Assembly: GCA_019119685.1 (NCBI GenBank)
Contig: DWWN01000015.1
Coordinates: 1 to 50,561 of the forward strand
Reading direction: 5' to 3'
DNA length: 50,561 bases
From: Candidatus Faecalibacterium faecigallinarum
GTDB lineage: Bacteria > Bacillota > Clostridia > Oscillospirales > Ruminococcaceae
In this document: positions 1-47,327 of the stretch, piece by piece
How positions within the stretch are numbered: position 1 is the stretch's first letter
Layout: every line of letters starts with the position of its first letter
The notes under the pieces: model-generated
The model's database searches: none
Seen by the model: the letters and a program-made list of their open reading frames with translations, nothing else
What the model was told of the DNA's origin: nothing
Position numbers and translations under genes: made by a program

Positions 1-648
1 ATCGTGTACACAGGCATGACCGAGAGCGAAGAAGCCCTGCTCTTTGCCCAGCAGACCGGCGAATCTGCCAGGCTGACACCCGGCGATAAAATGCGCGCCA
101 TGATCTACGGCGGCGACCCGGAATGTATGGCTTTCCTGAAGGCCACGGAATCGGTGGGGTTGAAGCTGGACTACGGCCAGCGCCGTGGAAAGTATCGCCT
201 TGGCTGCATCGGCACTGCATTCGAGGAGTTCAAGCGGGTGGGAGCCGACCTCTACAAGGAAGCCCTATCTATGATCGTGGCCGCCTGGCAGCTGAGCCGA
301 CCGCATCCGGTGGATGAAACAGGGAGGCGAAGCTGGCGCAGCGCTCCGGTTTTTGCAAGCGGGTGCCATCCCGCGCCGCAAAAAACGGCTAAGCGCAAGA
401 GGAATGGCGATCCCGAGTCCCTGCGGGCCGAAACGGTCCAGGGTGTGGTCCGCTTTGTAGAGCTGTACCATGGCGAGTACGACTCCCGCCGTCTTATCAC
501 CCGCCTGCACAAGACCGACCCGTTGACCATCTACCGGGAAGGGCGGGCCATGGGCGTCAACATGGCCGGGTACAAGAAGTACCTCTATCAGGTCTACTGC
601 ATCTACAACGGGAGCAGCAAAAAGAAAGTGCTGCCCATGAAGTTCTAA
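1..648 (+). CDS. ParB-like / DUF6551-type mobile-element protein, C-terminal part, carrying an in-frame palindromic insert
   Basis: The frame is open at the left edge, so the N-terminus is probably missing. The tail (residues about 140-214) reads LRAETVQGVVRFVELYHGEY and ends in KKVLPMKF. I associate this with ParB-nuclease-like DUF6551 proteins carried on integrative elements of gut Firmicutes; that recognition is from memory and only moderately sure. Residues about 97-135 (bases about 290-405) do not look like the rest of the protein. They are basic and Ser/Pro-rich, and their DNA is a copy of a palindromic repeat also found between genes at 47109-47213. Removing the insert would join an ordinary helix (SMIVAAW) to NGDPESLRAE. 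The gene lies with a toxin, a small protein and a serine recombinase on the same strand, which supports a mobile-element origin. Confidence 0.55.
   Translation: MVYTGMTESEEALLFAQQTGESARLTPGDKMRAMIYGGDPECMAFLKATESVGLKLDYGQRRGKYRLGCIGTAFEEFKRVGADLYKEALSMIVAAWQLSRPHPVDETGRRSWRSAPVFASGCHPAPQKTAKRKRNGDPESLRAETVQGVVRFVELYHGEYDSRRLITRLHKTDPLTIYREGRAMGVNMAGYKKYLYQVYCIYNGSSKKKVLPMKF
298..402 (+). repeat. palindromic element P, copy 1 (inside a coding region)
   Basis: This 105-bp segment aligns without gaps to 47109-47213. Its centre is a hairpin. The outer arms are CCGGTTTTTGC and GCAAAAAACGG, and the inner stem GCGGG/CCCGC encloses a 6-base loop. A further short stem, GCGCT/AGCGC, lies outside. It adds 35 codons with no stop to the host gene. 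Confidence 0.8.
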
Positions 649-731
649 CTTCTTGCTTTTACCCTTTGAGGGGACGCCGCCCCAGACTGCGGGCGGTGTC
701 TTACATAAAATATACAAAGGGGGTACATTGC

Positions 732-1091
732 ATGATTCCCAAAAACTGGAAATACAGCCGGGGTGACATCTACTATGCCAACATGGAACCCCATGTTGGC
801 TCTGAGCAGGGTGGGGAACGGCCAGTGGTGGTTCTGCAGAATGATACAGGCAACAAGCATTCACCCACACTTATCATTGCTACCCTTACATCCAGAGTGG
901 ACAAGAAGCTAAGTCTGCCGACCCACGTTTTGCTTGACCAAAACCCCGGGCTGAGAGTCCCATCTATCGTACAATTAGAACAGATTTTCACTCTCGACAA
1001 ACAACGTATGCAGCGATTTGTTGGTCAGGCCAGCAGCGAGGAAATAGACCGGATCGAAGCGGCTCTGAAAATCAGCCTGGGAATGAATTGA
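732..1091 (+). CDS. MazF/PemK-family toxin (endoribonuclease-type)
   Basis: The 119-residue product matches the PemK/MazF fold in length and order. It has RGDIYYANMEP with a GSEQGGERPVVVLQND loop near the N-terminus, then IIATLTSR, and LDQNPGLRVPSIVQLEQIFTLDK in the second half. Family members cut mRNA at short sequences as the toxin half of type II toxin-antitoxin pairs. I chose ATG 732 because a purine-rich AAAGGGGG lies 8-9 bases upstream; the frame stays open further upstream without a ribosome-binding site. No ribbon-helix-helix or AbrB-like antitoxin gene is visible next to it. In recombinase-linked elements such solo PemK proteins are common, so the role could be element maintenance or something other than classical toxin-antitoxin. 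Confidence 0.85.
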   Translation: MIPKNWKYSRGDIYYANMEPHVGSEQGGERPVVVLQNDTGNKHSPTLIIATLTSRVDKKLSLPTHVLLDQNPGLRVPSIVQLEQIFTLDKQRMQRFVGQASSEEIDRIEAALKISLGMN

Positions 1092-46488: not shown

Positions 46489-47001
46489 GTGGACAGCATC
46501 AACCGCAATTACCGTATCTATTCCGTTTTGCAGTTCGTCCTGGCGGTGGCTATTTTTGGGACGGTCTGCTTCATCTTCTCCAACTCGATGCAGACGGGGA
46601 TGGATTCTTCCATCGCCAGCCAGGCCGTGCAGGACTTTTTGCAGGGCCTGCTGCGGCGGCTGGGCCACCCGGGGGCGGCCGCCCGCCTGACCGAGCACAT
46701 GGTGCGCAAGGCGGCCCACTTCTGCGAGTATATGCTGGAAGGCTTCCTTCTGCTGCTGGGGGTCCGGCTGTTCAGCCCCAGGCTGCGCTATCTCAGCTGG
46801 CCGGCCCTGCTGGGCCTGCTCACCGCCCTGTGCGACGAGACCATCCAGCTGTTCTACGCCGGCCGGGGCAGCAGCGTCACCGACGTGTGGATCGACTTTG
46901 CCGGCGTCGTCACCGGCATGGCCGCCGCCCTGGCGGTGTCGGCCGTGCTGGGGGCCCTGTTCCGCCCCCGCCGCCGCGAGGAATCCCGCGGGAGGCACTA
47001 G
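46489..47001 (+). CDS. VanZ-family membrane protein
   Basis: The 170-residue protein has four hydrophobic segments, with FIFSNSMQTG near 30, MVRKAAHFCEYMLEGFLLLL (about 71-90) and the VanZ signature DETIQLFYAGRGSSVTDVWIDFAGV (about 116-140). The role is unknown; VanZ itself gives low-level teicoplanin resistance. The assigned start GTG 46489 sits inside the GGGGAGG sequence, so the true start may be a nearby rare codon; the first possible TTG is codon 15. The stop codon directly abuts R5. Confidence 0.85.
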   Translation: MDSINRNYRIYSVLQFVLAVAIFGTVCFIFSNSMQTGMDSSIASQAVQDFLQGLLRRLGHPGAAARLTEHMVRKAAHFCEYMLEGFLLLLGVRLFSPRLRYLSWPALLGLLTALCDETIQLFYAGRGSSVTDVWIDFAGVVTGMAAALAVSAVLGALFRPRRREESRGRH

Positions 47002-47327
47002 CCCTCTCCGTCACGGCGCTGAAGCGCCGCGCCACCTCCCCCGTAAACGTGGGAGGCAGTAGCCTACAGGTTACGTTTAGGCTCTCCCGCGTGCGGGGGC
47101 ACGAACAGCGACCGCGTCCAGTGGACGAAACAGGGAGCTGTGAGTGGCGCAGCGCTCCGGTTTTTGCAAGCGCCCACTGCGGCGCGCCGCAAAAATCGGC
47201 TAAGCGCAAGAGGGGCTGTCGAGACGCCCGTCAGGGCGGCGAGACTGAGAGGGCCAGAGGGCCGCGCAAACGCATCCTGCGGAGAGAGGGCGACCGCCCG
47301 CACCTGCACCCCCAGAAAGGAGCAACT
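47002..47327. repeat. fold-back element R5 with a nested palindromic element; rest of the gap empty
   Basis: CCCTCTC (47002-47008) to GAGAGGG (47247-47253) bound a 252-bp element with terminal hairpins GCGCTGAAGCGC and GACGCCCGTCAGGGCGGCGAG. Its middle is replaced by palindromic element P (47109-47213). The remaining 70 bases up to the next start hold only its ribosome-binding site. No gene is visible. Confidence 0.9.
47109..47213 (+). repeat. palindromic element P, copy 2 (nested in R5)
   Basis: It aligns without gaps to 298-402. The hairpin arms are CCGGTTTTTGC and GCAAAAATCGG; the inner stem is GCGCC/GGCGC instead of GCGGG/CCCGC, so both sides changed together. Confidence 0.85.

Follow-up and report, generated by a model that had tools for sequence, protein, structure and literature searches.

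The window, the whole 50,561-nucleotide stretch of the Candidatus Faecalibacterium faecigallinarum contig that we analyzed, opens with a DUF6551 gene that is interrupted in frame by one of two copies of a folded repeat. The original prediction had placed a 105-bp unit at both sites. A repeat was indeed present at each of them, but aligning the copies gave a folded unit of 114 bp in both, starting 9 bases earlier, and the 9 missed bases proved to be the 5' strand of an extra stem, P1. Alignment with further copies set the unit boundaries at the C right after GG and at the end of GCGCAAGAGG; main-type copies end in CGCAAGAGG, and the preceding bases are mostly GG. The inner-stem difference noticed between the two copies (GCGGG/CCCGC versus GCGCC/GGCGC) is real, as read from the sequence. 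The following features were assigned.

1 to 648, plus strand: host gene DUF6551 (PF20188), truncated at its 5' end where the contig begins
287 to 288, plus strand: GG immediately 5' of copy 1; a second GG (401 to 402) is the element end
289 to 402, plus strand: copy 1 of the element (114 bp), inserted in frame into DUF6551 and encoding QLSRPHPVDETGRRSWRSAPVFASGCHPAPQKTAKRKR; 132.3 bits with the family model
290 to 298, plus strand: P1 5' strand, partner of 326 to 334 around mismatched steps; hypervariable, covarying
304 to 316, plus strand: P2 hairpin CATCC-GGT-GGATG, enclosed by P1
326 to 334, plus strand: P1 3' strand
341 to 396, plus strand: P3 hairpin domain, 341 to 354 with 380 to 388 and 392 to 396, enclosing P4
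359 to 363 with 370 to 374, plus strand: P4, the stem pointed out in the original prediction
397 to 402, plus strand: 3' tail AAGAGG, conserved right end
47100 to 47213, plus strand: copy 2 of the element (114 bp), lying between genes and flanked by hairpins of a different repeat family; 135.5 bits

A search of the window with the family model found no copies beyond these two; two further matches were weak (13.6 and 11.1 bits, E values of 0.22 and 0.75). BLAST with copy 1 returned 37 matches in the genome at E ≤ 0.001, and copy 2 was recovered at E = 2.7e-24. Downstream of the interrupted gene, at positions 732 to 1091, lies a PemK/MazF-like gene, a neighbor that suggests an accessory region.

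The insert in the DUF6551 protein corresponds to residues 97 to 134, and its 38 codons contain no stop, in agreement with the predicted stop-free, in-frame insertion inside the first coding region. The segment was missing from all 24 DUF6551 homologues (L031 to L054, from Faecalibacterium and other Clostridia) with which we aligned the protein, the one or two residues that homologues hold in the 38 insert columns being an alignment edge; two of the homologues, L048 and L054, have internal stops. The nearest homologue, L031, showed 98% identity across the joined flanks, which, together with the absence of the insert from the complete set of homologues, indicates that the insertion is young. The insertion ends fit TGG/AAT as in L032, while most of the relatives shown have a different base after TGG, and thus the right joint is placed only approximately. 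The in-frame outcome would be an accident, made possible by the usual element length of 114 (3 × 38) and the lack of a stop in that frame.

The insertion had also been likened to the Rickettsia palindromic elements (RPEs), which, according to a passage in PMC10969869, are unusually frequent in genes, a single genome having 44 genic integrations. The likeness lies in a short palindromic repeat that sits in frame in a protein and is missing from homologues, and both the length of 114 bp, against an RPE size range of about 100 to 150 bp, and the 24/24 homologous proteins without the insert fit this comparison. A general habit of residing in proteins was not borne out by a codon-use screen of 108 distinct Faecalibacterium copies, in which 75 open frames crossed a copy with 30 codons on each side and just the window copy (1/108) had a coding score on both sides; no further in-frame insertion passed this screen, which is weak, its codon model having been built from 26 window ORFs. 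Even the correct frame of DUF6551 reached no more than 0.034 and 0.142, less than the antisense frame of the gene. The screen also leaves out any copy whose open frame extends less than 30 codons to one side, and therefore read-through may occur at gene ends. A rough gene caller placed 8 of the 108 copies within a predicted gene, with the window copy on the wrong strand, and when these eight were rechecked only the window copy was coding on both sides over at least 30 codons. Among 92 copies that were measured, 57 were 114 bp long and 65 had a length that was a multiple of three; 60 were stop-free in the frame of the window copy, and minus-strand frames were as open (77 and 73), so that nothing suggests adaptation to translation. 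Unlike RPEs, the element is spread across an order and is associated with tRNA genes.

Fold and covariation of the element

From alignment A1, which contains 51 diverse copies thinned from the 108 distinct Faecalibacterium copies, RNAalifold predicted a pair of hairpin domains, one with P2 nested in P1 and the other with P4 nested in P3. The conserved stem of the hairpin described originally was thus recovered, but its extent had been underestimated: the fold is larger, with P1 and P2 forming a second domain. The 34 pairs in A1 had 96.4% of cells paired, with a double change in 21 pairs and 221 doubly changed cells in total. None of 500 shuffles equaled the real alignment on any of five measures, and slid-partner controls reached at most 44% paired. 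Modeling the covariance of further copies therefore upheld the idea of a palindromic element with paired changes that preserve its fold, and the covariation was strong. Alignment A2 (71 matches, 41 Faecalibacterium rows and 30 from outside the genus) had been fitted to the structure, and in it 94.2% of cells were paired and 565 were doubly changed; here, the number of pair types, one of the five measures, was as high in 35 of 500 shuffles as in the real alignment.

The sequence of P1 varied widely among copies with pairing mostly kept (89.2% of cells in A1 and 88.9% in A2). At the P1-P2 junction, GA stood opposite GA in 38/51 copies, the layout of tandem G.A pairs, a geometry that we infer. 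G-T cells outnumbered A-C cells (39 versus 8, or 19 versus 6 without one column), which points to the plus strand as the folded strand, and six copies folded as single sequences better than shuffles, with z values of -2.7 to -4.4. The two ends of aligned copies were not complementary; that is, MITE-like terminal inverted repeats were absent.

Distribution, joints, and tRNA association

Matches to the covariance model R1 were counted at E ≤ 0.01, the E values of the model being rough. By this measure 30 of 31 Faecalibacterium genomes had from 1 to 100 matches each, with 53 in the genome of the window (G000), 90 in G021, and 100 in the sister species G023; by BLAST, 24/31 had at least one copy. 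The family sample had matches in 54/297 genomes and 29/126 genera, with scoring limited to 12 per genome, and the order sample in 110/394 genomes and 56/168 genera, with a limit of nine. Two further types were sorted by eye: type B, with the tail AACC and compensating P3 bases GCGGT/ACCGC, and type C, with the tail AACTCG. Rfam had one chance match overlapping the element in window positions 1 to 1000 (16.7 bits, versus a gathering score of 49.4) and no family on the element at E ≤ 0.05 in 20 loci. Among the papers listed by literature searches, titles and the openings of abstracts contained no description of such a repeat in Faecalibacterium or its relatives. A survey of 3161 candidate structured RNAs of the human microbiome (PMC8040213) makes no mention of Faecalibacterium in its main text, and the motif could be among the entries of its supplement. 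The element was present in 4 of 18 IMG/VR contigs examined, gave no match in a plasmid collection, and had two weak matches in a phage collection, both in unannotated fecal contigs. In one viral contig (L272, 9452 to 9574), a copy follows the apparent first codons of a gene, the start of which recurs, with differences, just downstream of the copy.

GG stood directly 5' of the element in 38 of the 51 A1 copies, compared with a GG frequency of 11.5% in the window, and in 26/30 matches outside Faecalibacterium, 21/30 of which had the 3' end GCAAGAGG. Among the 41 Faecalibacterium rows of A2, which are for the most part diverged copies of types B and C, it was less common, with 16 GG and 12 TG. 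When empty sites were compared for a short target-site duplication of the MITE kind, the GG on both sides fit either the target or the element, and some of these sites had unclean right joints. Insertion into hairpin loops had been suggested by eye (for example, CGCC-TGG/AAT-GGCG in the host gene) and was rejected: joined flanks folded across the joint no more than nearby GG[AT] sites did (58 and 38 sites; Mann-Whitney p values of 0.97 and 0.89), in a test made noisy by element starts that in some cases were placed inside P1.

Copies at least 96% alike formed 48 pairs, and in 12 of these both flanks were no more alike than shuffled sequence by local alignment (13 by ungapped comparison); one of the 12 pairs was identical within the element, and two (L060/L094 and L100/L130) may share repeat pieces, judged by eye. 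The element was not tied to gene direction in Faecalibacterium. With rough gene calls for 64 copies, both neighboring genes ran with the element in 17 cases and against it in 23, while 16 pairs were divergent and 8 convergent, with no clear bias. A contig ended within 50 nt after a copy in at least 9 of 60 stretches examined; assemblies with high copy numbers thus break at copies.

Copies were also seen inside other repeats, for two of which uninterrupted versions were found. Those at window positions 47000 to 47300 and in L003, L005, L011, and L012 lie within another abundant two-hairpin repeat of the genome, GGCTCCCCC...GGGGGAG.TGGC...GAGAGGG, of which an uninterrupted copy was recognized by eye in the left flank of L011. 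The repeat AATTTTGTCCCC...AGGGGGAAGGAATTTCTG... bears elements of type A or of type B, inserted at roughly one position (L007, L010, L014 to L017, L024, and L030). In L009, L104, and L132, an element copy sits midway in a larger, MITE-looking repeat, and copies may thus also spread as passengers. Some of the spread is passive, the element being carried along within larger repeats.

Outside Faecalibacterium, we analyzed the 48 best-scoring loci, 26 from the family search and 22 from the order search; they were picked by score, with several from one genus, and so are not independent. A tRNA gene lay within 300 nt of the element in 29/48 loci versus 89/667 control positions of the same loci, controls that include genic DNA and are already nearer to tRNA genes than random positions, and in 25 of the 29 the nearest tRNA gene was on the strand of the element. 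In 22/48 loci, which carry tRNA fragments, an intact tRNA of the locus had a 12-mer in common with sequence located outside it, and 13/48 lacked both a tRNA within 300 nt and a flanking T-arm motif. The 5' part of a tRNA ran into the element in L202, L208, L222, L243, L249, L252, L253, and the Faecalibacterium locus L186, and an intact copy of the matching tRNA adjoined each of these chimeras. As placed by eye, the element followed the D-loop GG of a tRNA-Pro 5' part in L202 and L186, the anticodon loop of tRNA-Pro in L208, the D-loop GG of tRNA-Ser in L243, L249, and L252, and the variable arm in L222. The 3' end of a tRNA recurred 3' of the element in L216, L219, and L226.

Several loci showed other arrangements. 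Copies were in tandem in L225, L227, and L253; the repeated unit of L225 and L253 includes the leader and the tRNA 5' part, and in L253 the intact tRNA comes next. In L212, L214, L226, L255, and L259, the bases just 5' of the element were antisense to part of the neighboring tRNA (12-mer), and a similar picture was read by eye in L219, L241, and L242, where the sequence folds back tightly, such as template switching might leave. At five loci (L196, L197, L200, L205, and L221), an apparent ABC-transporter permease gene has the element at its extreme end, and P1 carries GGC-TAA, which includes the stop, with the partner strand altered to match (both by eye).

Proposed mobilization and relation to known repeats

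The element is repetitive, paired changes keep its fold, near-identical copies lie between unrelated flanks, and the window copy is a young insertion. On balance, it is more likely than not to be a short (about 114 nt) non-autonomous mobile element of a bacterial order, the folded strand of which is mobilized in trans. An enzyme supplied in trans would recognize the folded plus strand, as single-stranded DNA or possibly RNA, and would join the element ends next to a target GG. We searched for candidate enzymes in the 31 Faecalibacterium genomes, of which 14 were copy-rich (at least 23 model hits), and, for Y1, in 25 of the 50 carriers from other genera found in the family sample. No candidate (Y1, reverse transcriptase, IS607, IS110, or TnpB) was consistently present with the element. 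The IS110 transposase (PF01548) was undetected in 8/14 copy-rich genomes, and PF01797, PF00078, and PF01548 were all undetected in 6/14, but five of these six assemblies are less than 90% complete, so that absence is not proven. TnpB (PF07282) was over the cut-off in 0/31 genus genomes. Weak PF07282 matches were confined to five copy-rich genomes, and this lead was dropped: two loci that were opened held apparent acetyl-CoA-carboxylase proteins with a zinc ribbon (by eye), and none of three loci examined contained the element.

Movement as single-stranded DNA appears more likely than movement as RNA because reverse transcriptase (RVT_1, PF00078) was undetected in 10 of the 14 copy-rich genomes; the sense orientation at tRNAs keeps the RNA route alive, and it suggests that transcription may play a part, which a model of single-stranded DNA alone does not require. 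An RNA-mediated spread resembling that of SINEs, in which the element would pass through a transcript, at some loci a tRNA-element chimera driven by a tRNA promoter, before returning to DNA, is fairly unlikely, even though the tRNA genes near 29/48 loci, 25 of them on the same strand, the shared 12-mers in 22/48, and the eight loci where a tRNA 5' part continues into the element beside an intact tRNA (with loop positions read by eye) all speak for it, and the G-T excess and the GA/GA steps suit RNA. As in eukaryotic tRNA-derived SINEs, a tRNA 5' part is joined to an unrelated structured body at several loci; unlike in SINEs, the tRNAs and joints differ by locus. The chimeras may also stem from tandem duplication of tRNA loci, and the scarcity of RVT_1 weighs against this reading as well. 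A bolder form of it, which we consider unlikely, would make the element the equivalent, across a bacterial order, of SINEs headed by a tRNA. In it, a folded RNA inserted in or joined to tRNA sequences in the sense orientation, and transcribed from tRNA promoters beside an intact tRNA, would have escaped the tRNA niche and multiplied in Faecalibacterium with machinery not yet described.

A further rival reading is an element of the REP/REPIN type moved by an IS200/IS605-like Y1 transposase (RAYT). The element, like REP/REPIN, is interspersed, folded into a conserved hairpin, strand-specific, and largely intergenic, and its imperfect hairpins and short fixed motif beside the joint resemble that group. 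Y1 genes occurred in 14/25 other-genus carriers and 4/14 copy-rich genomes. This identification is nevertheless quite unlikely, since PF01797 (Y1) was undetected in 10/14 copy-rich genomes, including G000, G021, and G023, from assemblies that are partly incomplete, and in 11/25 other-genus carriers, and since the element differs in its two domains with conserved internal loops and its GG joint. That it is a miniature relative of an IS607-type serine-recombinase transposon is highly improbable. Passages of PMC6188088 describe insertion of IS607 at (G)GG, GG at the ends, and no target duplication, and GG flanks both ends of main-type copies; however, 0/31 genus genomes had an IS607 transposase over the cut-off (sub-cut-off matches occurred in 27/31, most of those listed in open frames of about 500 amino acids), and the element has conserved base pairing, which a double-strand recombinase does not explain, instead of direct-repeat motifs. 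A functional noncoding RNA or cis-acting element with mobility as a secondary trait is very unlikely, although detection across the order with 1 to 3 matches in many genomes, a recurring position about 75 nt after tRNA-Ser(gct) in L240, L241, L258, and L259, and the TAA that P1 supplies to the apparent permease gene at five loci would fit it. Copy numbers that range from 1 to 100 across 30/31 Faecalibacterium genomes, the unbiased orientation relative to genes in that genus, and the 284/394 order-sample genomes in which strict filters detected no element argue against such a function. In size and copy number the element is like the ERIC, BOX, and RUP-type bacterial repeats and MITEs, from which it is set apart by the lack of terminal inverted repeats, the 21 doubly changed pairs, and the order-level range.

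Many bacteria carry short interspersed repeats. What is unusual here is a fold so elaborate, covariation so strong, and a range over a whole order of gut bacteria. The habit of lying within tRNA fragments and the lack of a known mobilizer in several of the copy-richest genomes make the movement of this repeat testable in culturable Faecalibacterium. They also carry a warning that tRNA and gene annotation in the order may contain hidden chimeras.
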